A stretch of 64,000 nucleotides of DNA from Arenibacter sp. F20364. GTDB taxonomy: Bacteria > Bacteroidota > Bacteroidia > Flavobacteriales > Flavobacteriaceae. The stretch covers positions 1-64,000 of the forward strand of contig NZ_JALKBD010000019.1 of the NCBI RefSeq assembly GCF_023015905.1, written 5' to 3'. Below are positions 4,001 to 54,810 of this stretch, one piece after another. Each line of letters opens with the position of its first letter. Within the stretch, counting starts at the first letter, position 1. The notes beneath the pieces are model-generated. The model made no database searches and was not told the origin of the DNA. It was given only the letters and a program-made list of their open reading frames with translations. A program made the translations under genes and the position numbers.

Positions 4001-4898
4001 GAATGCGGAAGCATCTAAAAAAATGTTGGCCATTATAAAAGATCAGAAGGCAGAACTGGAAGATAAAAGAAAGGGAATCCAGGGCTTGGCAGCGCAACAA
4101 AATCCAGCTTTACAAAATGAGCTACCAAAACTATTGGAAGACCCTCATTTGCGACTGCAGGCCATTAAGGCCATAGCAGCCTACGACAGTAAGGAATTGG
4201 GCAAGGTTTTGTTCAACCTATATGCAGATCTAACAAGGAAAGAAAAGGAAGAAGCTATAATGACGATGGCTTCAAGACCCATATATGGTCAAATTTTAGG
4301 GGATGCCCTAAAAAAGGGTATCATACCCAAATCGGACATTCCCGCCCACGTAGTACTTCAGTTGAGGGCTGTTCTGGGAAATGGTTTTGTGGAAATTTGG
4401 GGGCCTATTGATGATATATCCCAGACCTTACAAGTAGAGTACAAAAAATACCAAGGAATATTGACGGACGATGCCCTAAGCACGGCAAGCCCACTTAAAG
4501 GCAAGGAAATATTTAAACATACCTGCGCCACATGCCACATTCTGCACGGGGAGGGTGGTAAAATTGGCCCCGAACTTACTGGCTCCAACAGAACCAATAT
4601 CACCTATTTGTTAAGCAACATATTAAACCCAAGTGGAGATGTACAGGAAGACTATAAACTGGTGGTCATAACCACTCAGGACGGCCGTAGCTATAGCGGA
4701 AATGTCATTGCTGAAAACAACAGAAGCGTAACTCTACGAATAGTGGGTCAAGACCCGATTATTATTAACAAATCCCAGATAAGGACAAGGGACGTTTCCG
4801 AAAAATCCATGATGCCGGAAGGGCTCTTGAACAACCTTAGTACGGAGGAAGTATTGGATTTGATGGCATATTTAAATAAAATGGAGCCACCCAGCTAA
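1005..4898 (+). CDS. Lipoprotein: DUF6807 + PVC-type dehydrogenase + HEAT + cytochrome c
   Basis: This 1297-residue protein has an export signal with lipobox (LLAC, Cys17). Residues about 35-325 match the DUF6807 (PmoA-like) family, with the conserved segment SPGHHKHQTGLYWGF. Residues about 363-715 form a propeller of the PVC-type membrane-bound dehydrogenase family (GDH/sorbosone dehydrogenase-like; motifs WIAENRDYES, GFSNPWGIDYD). Residues about 740-1110 look like HEAT repeats. The C-terminus carries a Planctomycete-type haem domain with CATCH at 1174-1178 and a distal Met region. By family knowledge such proteins are predicted periplasmic or surface-anchored sugar or polyol dehydrogenases that pass electrons to a c-type haem; the substrate is unknown. 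It is monocistronic in view. The joining of DUF6807 to the dehydrogenase is the odd point. Confidence 0.88.
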   Translation: MPRILIVLIGIICLLACKPKKEKDVAPADVKQSSFHIEQTDNEIRIVPDGGNAAVVTQNTKPNFRPYIHPILAPGSNTELTEYSPGHHKHQTGLYWGFTRINGTGAEPEELKEWFYNPDKPIHIQKKIGRDYFHHPDGGYWQREAAEVLIAEGQELKWTTVYHMLDESKAPILKETQTWTFTEKDNKYLLTLEWQGEALIDLTINQFDYGGLFLRMPWKQGNKGEVINAARQKNEKADGQRAMWVDVGMEIKGLDHWGHIAIFDHKDNKDYPQPWRVDGQLGVGPVPARLGDWHIKKGETKIFQHQIVAYSGELDDMVLDDLWGDYVGDKGMYNTASLWGIAKQEGRDAKLLSPKEAVEAMAIKPGYTVNSFASEPMITQPMAFCWDDKGRMWIAENRDYESRSEGFSSSGDSRILILEDTDRDGVADSKKVFLEGIPFPSAIAVGHGGVFIGAPPNLLFVPDRNADDKADEKDTKVLLTGWGIRDRHETINSFHWGPDGWLYGLEGFATPSKIRKPKGAGRIYKHRDAFPNDLLEAEGVDINGGVWRYHPIKDRFEVVAHGFSNPWGIDYDAKGQLFITACVIPHMFHIIQGGIYHRQGGQHFNPYVYEDIKTIVDHRHRSAHGGARIYQSDAFPADQQGRLFMANIHEHAVLSDILTPIGSGFTASHGEDFMMANNAQWVGFSMEVGPAGDLYVLDWHDAEICGDAVINKDTGRVYRIMPAVSQAVDWPGRFDDLSKKSDRELVELQLSKSNWHAQRARVILQHRASRKSLDSAAISRLKDILAQHKNEDIRLRALWTLQITNGINVDRLTQLLDDRDQYVRGWAIQFLVEDGQPSQKAIHKLTAMAKNESSAVVRRYLAAALQRIAEIDRWAIAESLVRLHEDINDPNIPLMLWFGIEPMVAKQPEKALMLAMESRIPSIAQKIGRRLVDGNQLEKLTVAVGQKSEVQSDLLQGMLAGLEGNIDVKEPINWAKVYTLLKEDSGLSSMADAIAHKFGNAEASKKMLAIIKDQKAELEDKRKGIQGLAAQQNPALQNELPKLLEDPHLRLQAIKAIAAYDSKELGKVLFNLYADLTRKEKEEAIMTMASRPIYGQILGDALKKGIIPKSDIPAHVVLQLRAVLGNGFVEIWGPIDDISQTLQVEYKKYQGILTDDALSTASPLKGKEIFKHTCATCHILHGEGGKIGPELTGSNRTNITYLLSNILNPSGDVQEDYKLVVITTQDGRSYSGNVIAENNRSVTLRIVGQDPIIINKSQIRTRDVSEKSMMPEGLLNNLSTEEVLDLMAYLNKMEPPS

Positions 4899-44736: not shown

Positions 44737-44752
44737 ATCGTATATTTGCGAT
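44737..44752. promoter_or_regulatory. Putative ArsR operator and promoter upstream of arsR
   Basis: ATCG-N8-CGAT inverted repeat containing TATATTTG (44741-44748), which equals the Bacteroidota -7 box TAnnTTTG. A second TATCG-N8-CGATA site with the same spacer lies at 45186-45203. Binding there would block the promoter. It lies 72 bases upstream of the propeller gene start and 111 bases before the arsR ATG. Confidence 0.65.
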
Positions 44753-44863
44753 AAGCAATTGAAGATTGAGTATAAGAGTTGAACTGATAACGTCCCCTTT
44801 GTAATTTAGGGTCTTAAACCAAGCGGCAGGGCGGAGCGATCTAAAAAAAATATACTTGTATAG

Positions 44864-45169
44864 ATGAAAAGAAGTTTAGAACAAATAGAGTACCGGGAAG
44901 ATACCGAAGCGTTGGCAAAATATGCAAAGGCTTTAGGGCATCCTACGCGTATTGCCATACTAAAACATCTTGTTAATCAATCCTGTTGTTTCACAGGTGA
45001 TTTGGTAGATGTTTTTCCTTTGGCACAATCTACAATTTCACAACATCTTAAAGAACTAAAAAATGCGGGTCTTATTCAAGGAGAATTAAAACCGCCCAAA
45101 ATAAAGTACTGTATCAATCAAGAAAACTGGAAGGTCGCAAAATCATTGTTCCAGAATTTTTTTGACTAA
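44864..45169 (+). CDS. ArsR-family metalloregulator
   Basis: The 101-residue winged-helix repressor has ALGHPTRIAILKHL, the sensing Cys pair NQSCCFTGDL (Cys40, Cys41) and the recognition helix LAQSTISQHLKELKNAGLI. A third Cys (83) lies in KYCINQ. The vicinal Cys on helix alpha-3 mark it as a thiol-, arsenite- or related metal(loid)-sensing ArsR type. It is first in an operon with a thioredoxin-like protein, OsmC, permease, ALDC/FmdE fusion and DsrE-like protein, flanked by two inverted repeats with equal spacing that are the likely operators. Confidence 0.9.
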   Translation: MKRSLEQIEYREDTEALAKYAKALGHPTRIAILKHLVNQSCCFTGDLVDVFPLAQSTISQHLKELKNAGLIQGELKPPKIKYCINQENWKVAKSLFQNFFD

Positions 45170-45185
45170 TATTTTTTAATAATCC

Positions 45186-45203
45186 TATCGTATATAGGCG
45201 ATA
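45186..45203. promoter_or_regulatory. Putative second ArsR operator inside the operon
   Basis: TATCG-N8-CGATA inverted repeat, TATCG at 45186-45190 and CGATA at 45199-45203, between arsR and the thioredoxin-like gene. It repeats the arms and 8-base spacer of the site at 44737, implying a second repressor-controlled promoter for the structural genes. Confidence 0.65.
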
Positions 45204-45220
45204 AACTTAAAGCGAATAAT

Positions 45221-45457
45221 ATGACCAAAATAGTTAAAATATTGGGGACAGGTTGTCCAAAATGTCAATCAATGACAGGAGTAGTTAAAGATGTGATCTA
45301 CGAAAACAACATTGATGCCACCATCGAAAAAATTGAGGATATCATGGAAATTATGAAGTTCAACGTAATGACAACGCCGGCATTGGTAATAGATGATGTT
45401 ATCACCATAAAAGGAAGGGTACCTTCAAAAGATGAAGTGCTAGCACTTTTAAACTAA
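45221..45457 (+). CDS. Thioredoxin-like protein (Thioredoxin_3 type)
   Basis: The 78-residue cytoplasmic protein has the redox motif GTGCPKCQSM (Cys12, Cys15), the cis-Pro segment MTTPALVIDD and a closing helix RVPSKDEVLALL. It matches the small thioredoxin family that accompanies ArsP/DUF318 permeases in many bacteria, in which it probably reduces or carries thiols or metal(loid) adducts. It lies 51 bases after arsR and 14 bases before the OsmC gene. Confidence 0.9.
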   Translation: MTKIVKILGTGCPKCQSMTGVVKDVIYENNIDATIEKIEDIMEIMKFNVMTTPALVIDDVITIKGRVPSKDEVLALLN

Positions 45458-45471
45458 ATAAAATAAGTCTT

Positions 45472-45879
45472 ATGAATTATCAAATCAAGGCTTCCTCCAT
45501 TTCAGATCAGGATGCCATTGTTCATATCAAACAATCCAATATAGATTTTGGTACAACTGCAAATACTGCAGATATTTTGCCCAATCCAGCCGAATTGTTT
45601 TTGGGTTCATTTTCTGCCTGTATACTGAAAAATGTGGAGCGTTTTTCCGGTATGATGAAATTCAGCTATTCCAAGGCCACGTTGGAAGTCAATGCAACAC
45701 GTCTTGAAAACCCGCCTAGGATGGACAATATTCATTACGATCTAACAATTTATAGCAATGACAAAAAACTAAATACGGACTTGTTAAAAAAGAACATCGA
45801 AAAGTATGGTACTATCTACAACACCGTAAAACAATCATGCACTATTTCGGGAACTATTAGTACGGTAGAAAATGTTTGA
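45472..45879 (+). CDS. OsmC-family protein
   Basis: The 135-residue protein is a typical OsmC/Ohr-like enzyme: NPAELFLGSFSACILKNVE with peroxidatic Cys50 and the resolving-type Cys123 in VKQSCTISGT. The family reduces organic hydroperoxides or handles persulfides. It is cytoplasmic. The stop codon overlaps the start of the permease gene by eight bases, which implies translational coupling. Confidence 0.88.
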   Translation: MNYQIKASSISDQDAIVHIKQSNIDFGTTANTADILPNPAELFLGSFSACILKNVERFSGMMKFSYSKATLEVNATRLENPPRMDNIHYDLTIYSNDKKLNTDLLKKNIEKYGTIYNTVKQSCTISGTISTVENV

Positions 45880-46846
45880 TTGGTTACAACATTTTGCCGA
45901 TTGGCTCATTTACTCGGTTTTTAATATTGGGGCAGAAACTCATTTGGGAACTGCCCTGAATTTCTTTGTGTTTGATACGCTTAAAATTCTCATTTTATTG
46001 TTCTTCATTGTTTTTTTAATGGGCATAATCAATGCTTATTTTCCTATTGAGCGACTAAAGGGTTATCTGAATAGAAAGAAGCTTTACGGATTGGAATACT
46101 TTTTTTCTTCCGTTTTTGGGGCAATAACCCCCTTTTGTTCTTGCTCCTCGGTACCTCTATTTATTGGTTTTGTGCAAGGTGGCATTCCCTTAGGGGTAAC
46201 CTTTTCCTTTTTGGTCACCTCCCCTTTAGTGAATGAGGTAGCTGTGGCGATGTTTCTTGGCATGTTCGGTATAAAAGCTACTCTGATTTATGCTGTTTCA
46301 GGTATTTTATTAGGTACCATTGGCGGGTGGCTGCTTGGTAAATTTAAGCTCGAACCTTTACTTTCAGATTGGGTTAAGAAGATTCTTGATAATAAGATGC
46401 AACAAGGTGAATATGAAGAAGTGAAACAAACTTTCTACCAACGATTGCCCGGAATTTCCCGTGGGGCCTGGGATATTGTAAAAGGTGTTCTTCTTTATGT
46501 GGTCCTAGGGATTGCTATTGGGGCAGCCATGCACGGCTATGTTCCGGAAAATTTTTTCAACACCTATTTAGGTGGGGGCCAGTGGTGGACAGTTCCACTT
46601 GCTGTCCTGGTTGCCGTTCCCATGTACGCCAATGCCGCAGGAATAGTTCCCATTGTTCAGGTTTTTGTAGCCAAAGGGGTGCCACTTGGCACTGCTATTG
46701 CTTTTATGATGGCAACGGTAGGTCTATCCATTCCCGAAGCTACCTTGCTTAAAAAAGTTATGTCCCTAAAGTTAATTGCCATCTTTTTTGGCATTGTCAC
46801 GCTCTGTATCATCATTTCAGGGTATCTTTTTAATCTAGTGCTCTAA
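45872..46846 (+). CDS. ArsP/DUF318-family permease
   Basis: The 324-residue inner-membrane protein has about eight hydrophobic segments and the signature PFCSCSSVPLF (Cys89 and Cys91), then VTSPLVNEVAVAMFLG and PMYANAAG. ArsP proteins export trivalent organoarsenicals, and related DUF318 permeases are suggested to move other metal(loid)s or thiol compounds. It overlaps the OsmC gene and is followed by an exported ALDC/FmdE fusion 16 bases on. Confidence 0.88.
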   Translation: MFDWLQHFADWLIYSVFNIGAETHLGTALNFFVFDTLKILILLFFIVFLMGIINAYFPIERLKGYLNRKKLYGLEYFFSSVFGAITPFCSCSSVPLFIGFVQGGIPLGVTFSFLVTSPLVNEVAVAMFLGMFGIKATLIYAVSGILLGTIGGWLLGKFKLEPLLSDWVKKILDNKMQQGEYEEVKQTFYQRLPGISRGAWDIVKGVLLYVVLGIAIGAAMHGYVPENFFNTYLGGGQWWTVPLAVLVAVPMYANAAGIVPIVQVFVAKGVPLGTAIAFMMATVGLSIPEATLLKKVMSLKLIAIFFGIVTLCIIISGYLFNLVL

Positions 46847-46862
46847 TAAATTCTACAAAATC

Positions 46863-48170
46863 ATGAATAAATTAATTTTAATTTTTGCATTGACCTTTTT
46901 ACCATTGCCCAGCTTAATGGCACAAATAATTCCTAAAGTATATACAAAAGGTGCGATGAAAGATATGGGAACCGCCTATGACCTAAAGGTATGGCTGGAT
47001 AGCCTGCCCGATAAATCCAATTTGTTTGCCATGGGACCCTATGATAAAATGAAAGGCGAGATAACAGTTTTTGATGGTAAGCCCTTCTTTGCCACGGCAT
47101 TTGTTAAGGACAAAGCTGTGGTAAGTCAAAACTGGGATATCCGTTCTCCTTTTCTTGTTTATAGCAATGTAAAGGATTGGGAAGAATTTAATTTAAACGG
47201 TCCCATAAATAGTACTCAGGAAATAGAGGAAAAAGTGGCTGCATTGGCTAAGGATAAAGGTTATGATTTAAAAGAACCCTTTGCTTTTCGAATTGCTGGG
47301 GAATTTGCTCAAATCACCGCTCATATTGTTACGCCAAGAAGCCCGAAAATAGAAGGCTACAAACCAGATGTGAAATCCCAGAAGTTTTTCTTGGAAAACA
47401 ATAAGGGAGAATTATTAGGTTTCTACTCAGAAAACCATCAAGGAATATTCACCGGTTCCAAAAGCTTTGTCCATATACACTTTTTGAAGGAAGACCAGAC
47501 GTTTATGGGACATTTGGATGAAATTAGCACAGGGAACCAAACATTAAAACTCTACCTGCCAAGAAAGCAGCCGGTGGTTAGAACTGCTGTGCAGGTAAAT
47601 GATACCGATTTTTCAAAAGGGCGTTTGGGGAATATTCAATATATAGATTTGAATGACCTGGTAAAATTTCATGGCCATCTTTGTGACGGGCTGGTGGTAG
47701 GGCATCTGGCTTTGCAAAGCGCACTAAATGAATTATATCCTGATGGTTTAGTAGATAGGACAAATACCCGAATTGTAAGCAAACCTTCCCCCTGCCTGAC
47801 CGATGCAGCTATTTATACAACGGGAGGCAGATATCAGTTCAATACATTCTATGTGTCCGATAATATGGATGGATTATTTACGGTTCAACGTATTGATACG
47901 CGAGAAGCCATAGCCGTAAAAATGAAAAAAGGTGTAAAACCCCAAGAAATTGACCAACTTGGATCTCTAGCCGTAAAAGGAGAATTGTCGGCCTGCGATT
48001 TGGATAAATTAAAGGGAATGGAAGATAATTTTACGGAAATGTTACTTTCCGCCGATCCAAAAGATAATTTCACCCTAAGTGAATTACCCGATTTTAAATG
48101 GAACCCTGTTTTGAAGAACGATTATATAAAAACGGATATTCTCAATAAAAATATATCAAAATGTCAATAA
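46863..48170 (+). CDS. Exported fusion: ALDC-like domain + FmdE-like domain
   Basis: The 435-residue protein has a signal peptide (MNKLILIFALTFLPLPSLM, ending AQ). Residues about 25-235 resemble alpha-acetolactate decarboxylase: the metal triad HIH...GHLDE (His204, His206, His217) and preceding MKGEITVFDGK. Residues about 262-420 resemble FmdE (formylmethanofuran dehydrogenase subunit E-like), with HGHLCDGLVVGHLAL (Cys274), PSPCLTDAA (Cys311) and a later Cys378. I know the two families singly; a joined exported form in an arsR operon is unusual to me. The chemistry is unknown; metal- and thiol-handling is a fair guess. Confidence 0.8.
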   Translation: MNKLILIFALTFLPLPSLMAQIIPKVYTKGAMKDMGTAYDLKVWLDSLPDKSNLFAMGPYDKMKGEITVFDGKPFFATAFVKDKAVVSQNWDIRSPFLVYSNVKDWEEFNLNGPINSTQEIEEKVAALAKDKGYDLKEPFAFRIAGEFAQITAHIVTPRSPKIEGYKPDVKSQKFFLENNKGELLGFYSENHQGIFTGSKSFVHIHFLKEDQTFMGHLDEISTGNQTLKLYLPRKQPVVRTAVQVNDTDFSKGRLGNIQYIDLNDLVKFHGHLCDGLVVGHLALQSALNELYPDGLVDRTNTRIVSKPSPCLTDAAIYTTGGRYQFNTFYVSDNMDGLFTVQRIDTREAIAVKMKKGVKPQEIDQLGSLAVKGELSACDLDKLKGMEDNFTEMLLSADPKDNFTLSELPDFKWNPVLKNDYIKTDILNKNISKCQ

Positions 48171-48742
48171 TTAAATCTTTAATTAAAATGCAAAATAGAT
48201 CTCCACTCCTATTTTTTTTGGCCGTGTTTCTTATTCAAACCACCTTGTCGTATGGGCAGGATAATGAACCAACGACTGGGCCTGTCTTTTATAATATCGG
48301 TGCTGTATACTCTATTGATAGTTTGGATTACATACCCGATACCTCCCAACAATTAAAGGCAATTTTTGACGTCGACCGAAAGCACACAGACCCAAGTGCA
48401 AGCAATTCCATCATCTCTAGTTTACATCGCTATTATAATATGCACGTACGATACGGAGTCCCCAAGGAACAGATTTACCTAGCTATTGTATTACATGGCG
48501 GTTCAACAAAAGATGCCCTGTCCCCTACCGTTTACAAAGAAAAATTCAATACGGACAACCCCAATAAGGACTTAATAAAAACACTTTCCGATATGGGTGT
48601 ACACATCTATTTATGCGGGCAATCCATGTCTTATAGCGGCTACAGTAAGGAAGATTTACTTCCCGAAGTAAAAGTTGCCCTGTCAGCTATGACGGTGTTA
48701 ACGGTATATCAAATGAATAATTATGCCCTAATTAAATTCTAG
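48161..48742 (+). CDS. Exported DsrE-like protein
   Basis: The 193-residue protein overlaps the fusion gene by ten bases and may start at 48161 or 48188. A signal peptide ends near LSYGQ. The mature part has the DsrE/DsrF-like fold: YNMHVRYGVPKEQIYLAIVL, LHGGSTKDAL, then the Cys-bearing segment GVHIYLCGQSM (Cys152) and a hydrophobic tail. DsrE-type proteins carry sulfur on a Cys. An exported version at the end of this operon suggests periplasmic sulfur or thiol chemistry. Confidence 0.85.
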   Translation: MSIIKSLIKMQNRSPLLFFLAVFLIQTTLSYGQDNEPTTGPVFYNIGAVYSIDSLDYIPDTSQQLKAIFDVDRKHTDPSASNSIISSLHRYYNMHVRYGVPKEQIYLAIVLHGGSTKDALSPTVYKEKFNTDNPNKDLIKTLSDMGVHIYLCGQSMSYSGYSKEDLLPEVKVALSAMTVLTVYQMNNYALIKF

Positions 48743-53961: not shown

Positions 53962-54090
53962 CTTGGACTGAAAATTAAAATTTTGAATTTGAGATATTCA
54001 TTTCAGGGCTTCTTACTATTGAAATAAAAATGCATAGTGAAAATAACCCGTATCACTATCTTTATAAAAGAACTTAAATTTAACGGACAT

Positions 54091-54810
54091 ATGAAAAAGG
54101 TTGCTCACACTTTAGTTTTAATATTGGTTTTTATGCCAATCTACACCGGGGTTGCACAAATCGATACCCCTAATGGATTCTATACCTATAAAAAAGGTGA
54201 CCCCAATGGTATAGGCAAATGGTATATGGGAAGGGAAATTGCACATGTGATGGGATATCAGGGAATGCAATGGTTAGATCGTCCAGAGCGTGAAGAAGAG
54301 GAGAACACCACTACCCTATTGCTAAATATGGCTATCGGCCCAGAGGACATTATAGCCGATATTGGTGCGGGATCTGGTTACCACGTTTTTAAGATGGCGA
54401 AATTGGCCCGGCATGGGCTTATCTATGCCGTTGATATCCAAGATGAAATGCTCCAAGTGATCAATAGTCGTAAAGATCGGGGCCAAATTAAAAATGTAAG
54501 GGTTATAAAAGGTGGGGAAAAAAGTGTAAACCTGGCCGAAAACTCATTGGACAAGGTGCTCATGGTGGATGTATACCATGAATTTAATCATCCTGCAGAA
54601 ATATTGGCCTCCATTAAAAAAGCCCTTAGATCCGATGGAGAAATATTTTTAATTGAATACCGGGGTGAAGATGAGTCGGTACCTATAAAAAAATTGCATA
54701 AAATGACGGAAGCACAGGCAGTGAAGGAAATGAAAGCGGCGGGTATGAAGCTTAAGCGAAACATAGATAACCTACCTTGGCAACATTGTATGGTCTTTGT
54801 AAAGAATTGA
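54091..54810 (+). CDS. Exported class I SAM-dependent methyltransferase
   Basis: The 239-residue protein starts best at 54091 (MKKVAHTLVLILVFMPIYTG, signal ending GVAQ). The mature part is a Rossmann methyltransferase: motif I DIIADIGAGSGYHVFK, IYAVDIQDEML, and LDKVLMVDVYHEFNHPAEIL. Methyltransferases with clean signal peptides are unusual because SAM is cytosolic. It is either a true periplasmic enzyme, a moonlighting fold, or the N-terminus is a membrane anchor. Confidence 0.8.
   Translation: MKKVAHTLVLILVFMPIYTGVAQIDTPNGFYTYKKGDPNGIGKWYMGREIAHVMGYQGMQWLDRPEREEEENTTTLLLNMAIGPEDIIADIGAGSGYHVFKMAKLARHGLIYAVDIQDEMLQVINSRKDRGQIKNVRVIKGGEKSVNLAENSLDKVLMVDVYHEFNHPAEILASIKKALRSDGEIFLIEYRGEDESVPIKKLHKMTEAQAVKEMKAAGMKLKRNIDNLPWQHCMVFVKN

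Follow-up and report, generated by a model that had tools for sequence, protein, structure and literature searches.

A putative ArsR-controlled operon of Arenibacter sp. F20364 that adds an exported ALDC-like/FmdE fusion protein to an ars-type gene set

The operon and the closest described systems

ArsP of Campylobacter jejuni is described as an efflux permease for methylarsenite and other organoarsenicals (PMC11653729, PMC6205960); its reported substrates include methylarsenite and trivalent roxarsone, whereas arsenite is not exported (PMC6205960). In Bacteroidota, ArsP_1 permeases are also found in ArsE/ArsF/ArsG cassettes, for example on a plasmid of Prevotella nigrescens. Here we analyse an operon at positions 44737-48742 of a 64,000-nucleotide stretch of DNA from the marine bacterium Arenibacter sp. 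F20364 (NZ_JALKBD010000019.1; the whole stretch is called the window below). The operon resembles the Prevotella cassette in its ArsR, its ArsE-family thioredoxin, its permease and a similar operator. It differs in having no ArsF, ArsG, ArsC or Acr3 and in adding OsmC and a fusion of an alpha-acetolactate decarboxylase (ALDC)-like domain to FmdE. The permease is like C. jejuni ArsP at the family level (PF03773, ArsP_1). Compared with an ars operon, the F20364 operon has an ArsR with a cysteine sensor but no arsenate reductase or arsenite pump. Compared with the ArsEFG system, it has neither ArsF nor ArsG at the locus, a genome-wide search having been made for ArsG and not for ArsF.

The fusion also has described relatives for each of its halves. 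It shares the fold and the metal site of FHGHxC plus a second cysteine with the FmdE structures 2glz, 2gvi and 3d00, but is predicted to be exported and is joined to the ALDC-like domain; its relatives are often lipoprotein-like. With alpha-acetolactate decarboxylase (4bt2 and others) it shares the fold, the three zinc histidines and the glutamate of a GE motif, whereas it has a histidine for Arg145, no counterpart of the C-terminal region, a signal peptide and the attached FmdE domain.

Taken together, the data suggest that this is probably an ars-type operon for export, repressed by ArsR and responsive to metalloids, to which an extracytoplasmic metalloprotein has been added. The sensor, the permease and the thioredoxin are ordinary; the exported fusion of FmdE and an ALDC-like domain is unexplained, and literature searches on FmdE with alpha-acetolactate decarboxylase and on FmdE with arsenic gave no description of this module.

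A sequence-only reading had described six closely packed plus-strand genes of named families, and both the coordinates and the Pfam matches agree with it (Table 1). The E-values are 6e-12 for HTH_5, 5e-26 for Thioredoxin_3, 1e-10 for OsmC, 5e-67 for ArsP_1 and 5e-14 for DsrE, while AAL_decarboxy (2e-17) and FmdE (2e-19) both fall within a single protein. Gaps of 51, 14 and 16 bases separate arsR from the thioredoxin gene, the thioredoxin gene from osmC and the permease gene from the fusion gene, and osmC overlaps the permease gene by 8 bases. The vicinal cysteines of ArsR (41 and 42) and the CPKC of the thioredoxin, noted in the same reading, are present in the sequences. So is the absence of acr3 from the operon borne out, the only acr3 above its family cut-off in the genome being on another contig. 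Neither ArsC nor an arsenite pump was found by Pfam among the six products, which agrees with the reported lack of arsC, for which no genome-wide search was made.

Table 1. Features of the operon, in window positions
Feature	Position	Strand	Description	Basis or location
Putative ArsR operator 1	44737..44752		16-bp palindrome ATCGTATATTTGCGAT	127 bases before arsR start
arsR	44864..45169	+	ArsR/SmtB repressor, 101 aa, Cys41/Cys42/Cys83	PF01022; NF033788 above cut-off
Putative ArsR operator 2	45187..45202		ATCGTATATAGGCGAT	34 bases before thioredoxin start
Thioredoxin-like gene	45221..45457	+	ArsE family, CPKC	TIGR00412 (MTH895/ArsE family)
osmC	45472..45879	+	OsmC-family protein	PF02566
Permease gene	45872..46846	+	ArsP_1 (DUF318), TPFCSCS motif	PF03773
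ALDC-like/FmdE fusion gene	46863..48170	+	435 aa, predicted exported	Pfam, alignments, AlphaFold2, Foldseek
dsrE	48188..48742	+	DsrE family, predicted exported, 184 aa from conserved (probable) start	PF02635, alignment

Regulator, putative operators and related arsenic operons

The ArsR scores 64.4 bits against NF033788 (cut-off 55). Of 44 aligned rows, 40 keep its Cys41, 43 its Cys42 and 43 its Cys83; the rows comprise 43 ArsRs encoded directly before a thioredoxin gene and the ArsR of the acr3 operon of F20364.

Two palindromes, one before arsR and one before the thioredoxin gene, are candidate operators. The degenerate pattern ATCGYNNATNNRCGAT has two matches in the 5,735,699-base genome, both of them these sites, and the same pattern written backwards has none. 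Many relatives carry the same palindrome upstream of arsR or of the thioredoxin gene. In order to count such sites, and the gene neighbours given below, we used loci retrieved by searching with three aligned FmdE-bearing proteins; of the 117 loci confirmed, the best 80 were kept, which with the F20364 locus gives a set of 81, and individual loci are cited by L numbers. Open reading frames (ORFs) were labelled with profiles of the operon genes and of recurring neighbours, the latter being named via Pfam and NCBIfam (ArsF, ArsG, rhodanese, DinB-like, Acr3, ArsC types and DUF6428). Because FmdE was used for retrieval, the counts describe the partners of FmdE and not those of all permeases. Over the 999,534 bases of this set, including 16 kb of the F20364 locus, 56 of 70 ATCGN8CGAT sites lie within -200 to +20 of the start of a plus-strand arsR or thioredoxin gene, where a uniform spread would give 1.8. 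The looser pattern [AT]TCGN8CGA[AT] occurs at least once in 54 of the 63 loci with an arsR or thioredoxin gene and at least twice in 35; nine have none. The -7 promoter motif of Bacteroidota is TAnnTTTG, and operator 1 contains TATATTTG at 44741-44748, which fits such an element; a scan for the full promoter pattern found none at operator 1. The operon is probably a small self-regulated gene set of the arsenic-defence kind.

The arsenic link is provided by the operons of relatives. In L136, permease-arsC-acr3 is preceded by an ArsR 60% identical to that of F20364; this ArsR has all three cysteines, two palindromes of this type go with it, and an FmdE gene lies about 6 kb from the operon. The ArsR of L139 is 53% identical, has cysteine at two of these positions and comes with one palindrome; it stands before an operon that includes arsC, thioredoxin, permease, arsG and acr3. 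The first operator of L127 is identical to site 1 and the ArsR there is 85% identical; in this locus arsR-thioredoxin-OsmC-permease-arsF-arsG comes after an arsR-DUF6428-arsC-acr3 operon. The closest plasmid-borne permease (66.7%) is that of P. nigrescens, encoded within arsR-arsF-arsG-thioredoxin-permease-arsC-acr3; TTCGN8CGAA sites precede both arsF and the permease gene, and the ArsR keeps two of the three cysteine positions. On a Comamonas plasmid, arsC-arsD-arsA-arsC-acr3 is followed by a sigma-factor gene and then by permease-thioredoxin-rhodanese-OsmC, and an Alicyclobacillus plasmid carries the cluster arsD-arsA-arsA-hypothetical-FmdE-arsR-transporter-arsC-arsC. On a Sulfuricella plasmid, FmdE is located away from the ars genes. 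The regulator and its operator are therefore shared with operons holding arsC and acr3 (L136, L139 and, as an operator variant, the Prevotella plasmid), and are not shared by L135, L145 or the acr3 operon of F20364 itself. Sulfur, persulfide, selenium or metal(loid) handling had all been proposed from the sequence, and this sharing narrows the choice towards a metalloid.

The thioredoxin-like protein, in which no signal peptide was seen by eye, scores 108.9 bits against TIGR00412 (cut-off 62), placing it in the ArsE family. The permease belongs to ArsP_1 (PF03773, 226.6 bits, cut-off 32.3) and contains the TPFCSCS motif, which we take to be a mark of the family; among the locus permeases that are 300 aa or longer, 60 of 64 have it. 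The permease sequence gave no matches among solved structures.

In the scheme that we propose, trivalent arsenic or antimony, whether inorganic, organic or thiol-bound, would bind Cys41, Cys42 and Cys83 of ArsR, a ligand suggested by related regulators. Ligand-bound ArsR would leave both operators, of which the first overlies the putative arsR promoter and the second precedes the thioredoxin gene. The ArsE-like thioredoxin and OsmC may then keep thiols and cargo reduced in the cytoplasm, through a presumed supply of thiols, while export of the trivalent (organo)metalloid would fall to the ArsP_1 permease. Beyond the membrane, the exported fusion would capture this cargo or convert it chemically, two roles, binding and catalysis, that sequence does not separate. 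With the fusion added, the cell may thus have a further line of defence outside its membrane.

The fusion protein and its neighbourhoods

The fusion has an N-terminal signal at about residues 1-21 (by eye), an ALDC-like half at residues 55-230 with E66, H154, H204, H206 and H217, and an FmdE half at residues 269-403 with H270, H272, C274 and C311 (by alignment). An AlphaFold2 model made from a 35-sequence alignment has a mean pLDDT of 90 and a pTM of 0.70. Foldseek searches with this model returned ALDC structures (best E-value 8.5e-14) and the FmdE structures 2gvi and 2glz, with 3d00 more weakly. A separate search of solved structures with the FmdE half gave no significant match.

The FmdE half scores 67.2 bits against PF02663 (cut-off 22.9), so that family, ligands and fold all identify it as FmdE. 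The consulted part of the structure paper on this family (PMC2954224) gives the metal ligands as the His, His and Cys of FHGHxC and a later Cys, reports zinc or nickel in the structures and, in one of them, an unexplained ligand near the later Cys, states that most PF02663 genes are adjacent to metal-ion transporter genes (section 3.7) and leaves the function of the protein open. HGHxC is present in 81/81 FmdE ORFs of at least 150 aa in our loci; 75/81 also have the later Cys within its motif. Scored by a crude rule, 37 of the 60 unfused FmdE ORFs are lipoprotein-like, 14 are signal-like and nine are neither, which suggests that this branch of FmdE works mostly outside the inner membrane.

In the alignment with 4bt2, E66 of the fusion corresponds to Glu65 and H204, H206 and H217 correspond to His194, His196 and His207; the GE and three-histidine zinc motif is common to all 15 aligned ALDC-like sequences (eight fusion halves and seven stand-alone). 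We take the three zinc histidines, Glu65, Arg145 and a C-terminal Glu253 to be the residues with catalytic roles in ALDC. A histidine replaces Arg145 in 15/15 of the sequences, and the C-terminal region of known ALDCs has no counterpart in the alignment, the chains ending or passing into FmdE first. The fusion scores 49 bits against the ALDC profile TIGR01252, for which the cut-off is 180.65. As the zinc ligands are kept but Arg145 is absent, the ALDC-like half is likely to hold a metal site and unlikely to decarboxylate acetolactate. The ALDC label of the sequence-only reading is therefore right for the fold, given the Foldseek matches and the zinc ligands, and probably wrong for the reaction. 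With the FmdE half, this gives two predicted sites, one a zinc-type site of three histidines and the other of two histidines and two cysteines.

Across the 81 loci, the recurrent neighbours of FmdE are an ArsR regulator, a thioredoxin of the ArsE family and an ArsP_1 permease. The ALDC-like domain is fused to FmdE in 22 loci, with a permease within 6 kb in 21 of these. Full context, taken as 3 kb or more upstream and 2.5 kb or more downstream, was available for 17 fusion loci and 35 loci with FmdE alone. The former contain a permease in 16 cases, a thioredoxin in 16, arsR in 14, OsmC in nine, DsrE in four and Acr3 in two, and none has ArsF or ArsG. The latter contain a permease in 31, a thioredoxin in 30, arsR in 29, ArsG in 28, ArsF in 24, rhodanese in 23 and Acr3 in eight. 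Within 6 kb of FmdE, acr3 is found in 14/81 loci. ArsC-type genes are found in 16/81 and CDF genes in 8/81. Separate ALDC-like genes occur in the unfused-FmdE clusters of L084 and L092, and also beside the fusion in five more loci (one of these, L042, being a short fragment). Outside Bacteroidota, FmdE is accompanied by ArsR, permease and thioredoxin in a Thermodesulfobacterium metagenome-assembled genome (MAG; L106), by ArsC-type, permease, thioredoxin and ArsG genes in a Campylobacterales MAG (L108) and by ArsR and permease in an Anaerolineae MAG (L110). The sequence-only reading had proposed that its six families be sought together in Bacteroidota; FmdE, alone or fused and mostly with an export signal, proved a recurrent partner of the ArsR, thioredoxin and permease set, and DsrE did not (4/81 loci).

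A survey of 345 Bacteroidota genomes gave 95 near-full-length relatives of the F20364 permease (40-100% identity), of which at least 44 lie within 10 kb of acr3. With genomes of about 3.5 Mb that carry around one acr3 each, chance would account for about 0.6. The same survey gave 15 FmdE matches, six of them within 10 kb of a permease of this group.

These neighbourhoods link the exported branch of FmdE, together with an ALDC-like partner that was found repeatedly, to metalloid-type operons in Bacteroidota; in other phyla they place a few FmdE genes in ars-like contexts. FmdE thereby gains a concrete candidate role, the handling of metalloids outside the membrane, and OsmC and rhodanese emerge as frequent companions of the permease and thioredoxin pair. 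These exported ALDC-like proteins should not be annotated as enzymes of the acetoin pathway.

Four further proposals about these genes were not upheld. The raw counts point to fusion and ArsF/ArsG as exclusive alternatives, but L047, a fusion locus with less context, has both ArsF and ArsG, and a phylogeny-aware pair test found only two supported pairs and no significance. That OsmC and rhodanese replace each other at a single position in the operon was likewise not supported by such a test. A single origin of the fusion is at odds with the FmdE tree, which needs five changes, at least two of them forced, and rejects a single clade (p-AU 0.029); this is a modest result from a quick tree with long branches (78 rows, L056, L104 and L105 being left out as short). 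In that tree, the nearest relatives of the FmdE half of F20364 are from three named Arenibacter. Finally, the ALDC-like domain alone is not a marker of ars operons, since 24 of 27 Flavobacteriaceae loci with stand-alone ALDC-like proteins (L004-L030, at most about 1.5 kb on each side) carry no other label; L026 has ArsR and CDF labels, and L006 and L013 have Rhod or Trx2 labels.

Two loci deserve separate mention. In L084, from Flavihumibacter stibioxidans, the ALDC-like gene, thioredoxin, permease and unfused FmdE are clustered with arsR genes and acr3. In L097, just before the arsR operon, a second FmdE without an evident signal (4088-4690) precedes a TauE/SafE-type gene, and FmdE is also beside TauE in L135 and L136.

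Other explanations and further genes

Several observations weigh against a metalloid-responsive export operon. F20364 has its own acr3 operon elsewhere, arsR-arsC-like-DUF6428-phosphoesterase-acr3, with a different ArsR and no palindrome, and so the studied operon is not needed for plain arsenite efflux; it may instead add to it. The palindrome is also missing from the arsR-DUF6428-arsC-acr3 operon of L127. The ArsRs of L135, L145, L134, L111, L106 and L110 are of a distant type without this cysteine set, and the sensor is thus common to only part of the ars and permease operons. Of the two permease equivalog families scored, SaoE (128.1 bits, cut-off 325) and the SO_0444 Cu/Zn efflux family (96.2 bits, cut-off 300), neither cut-off is reached. 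Some FmdE genes adjoin TauE/SafE-type or rhodanese genes, which gives them a sulfur flavour. FmdE is rare, with PF02663 matched in 12/345 Bacteroidota genomes (15 matches), and the fusion is present in only 2 of 149 Flavobacteriaceae genomes, F20364 and one other; 33 of the 149 have a match, one to FmdE alone and 30 to the ALDC half alone. Lastly, among the matches listed, FmdE occurs near four of the ten closest permeases (at least 57% identity) and acr3 near only one, suggesting that the closest branch has mostly left classical ars operons.

It is possible, though doubtful, that the fusion is a two-metal extracytoplasmic enzyme that finishes exported cargo in place of the ArsG/ArsF pair, for example by hydrolysis or oxidation of thiol- or carbon-bound trivalent arsenic or antimony. 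This would give FmdE a function outside formylmethanofuran metabolism.

We consider it unlikely that the operon answers sulfur or persulfide stress, with an ArsR that senses persulfide or sulfite, a permease that exports sulfur species, persulfide handled by OsmC, DsrE, thioredoxin and (in relatives) rhodanese, and a thiol compound bound by FmdE. The frequencies of rhodanese in the FmdE-alone loci and of OsmC in the fusion loci would fit, as would TauE/SafE-like genes in 4/59 FmdE-alone loci, the exported DsrE of Arenibacter and a weak BigR score of the ArsR (NF040642, 28.6 bits, cut-off 155). However, the arsC/acr3 operons of L136 and L139 are headed by related ArsRs and have an operator of this kind, the permease family is so often near acr3, and rhodanese and OsmC also accompany the permease in the arsenic cluster of the Comamonas plasmid.

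Nor is DsrE conserved. It was present in 4/81 loci, those of the three named Arenibacter and of F20364, and in the former it lies about 300 bases from the fusion gene, a gap in which a promoter pattern scan found nothing. DsrE was rejected as a core partner on these grounds. The sequence-only reading had counted the exported DsrE as part of the system and allowed that, if not conserved beside the other genes, it would be just a neighbour; by that measure it is one, and comparison of the loci indicates that it is a genus-level addition. The DsrE sequence had no significant match among solved structures. The products of the three Arenibacter genes are 184 aa long and begin MQNRS, and the start of dsrE in F20364 is therefore probably the matching ATG at 48188, 17 bases after the fusion gene, rather than the first ATG at 48161, which would give an overlap of 10 bases.

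An operon for the export of copper, zinc or organomercury-type compounds, like those of SO_0444 or SaoE, is quite improbable. These two families give the top NCBIfam scores of the permease, yet the scores are far under the cut-offs. The zinc or nickel of FmdE structures, the metal-ion transporter genes reported beside most PF02663 genes (PMC2954224) and the CDF genes at some loci would fit, but Acr3 and ArsC-type genes are commoner neighbours than CDF. That the fusion is a true periplasmic acetolactate decarboxylase or acetoin enzyme merely sharing the operon is very unlikely indeed, for it has the ALDC fold and zinc ligands but not Arg145, the C-terminal region or an adequate TIGR01252 score, nearly every fusion locus has a permease nearby, and separate ALDC-like genes lie near unfused FmdE in two more loci.

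ArsG has no match in the F20364 genome, and nothing is above cut-off for NF008823, which we take to be the arsenite methyltransferase profile. In the window, 54037-54810 encodes what by eye appears to be an exported S-adenosylmethionine-dependent methyltransferase-like protein, and a weak match to NF008823 lies at 54334-54645 (E-value 4e-7, far below cut-off). The ArsC-like protein of the acr3 operon of F20364 (L120, 2240-2875) has a signal-peptide-like start and, by eye, apparently lacks the usual arsenate-reductase cysteine loop, and may be an exported, inactive relative. A unit of sigma factor, thioredoxin and permease on the Arenibacter algicola plasmid pSMS7 (L142, 5056-6960) resembles the sigma factor-permease-thioredoxin units of the proteobacterial plasmids L143 and L144. 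Finally, a second ArsP_1 permease of F20364 (L121, 3422-4534), encoded next to recombinase and integrase genes, contains an internal run of near-identical SSQQV(V/A)SCGTSSNN repeats.

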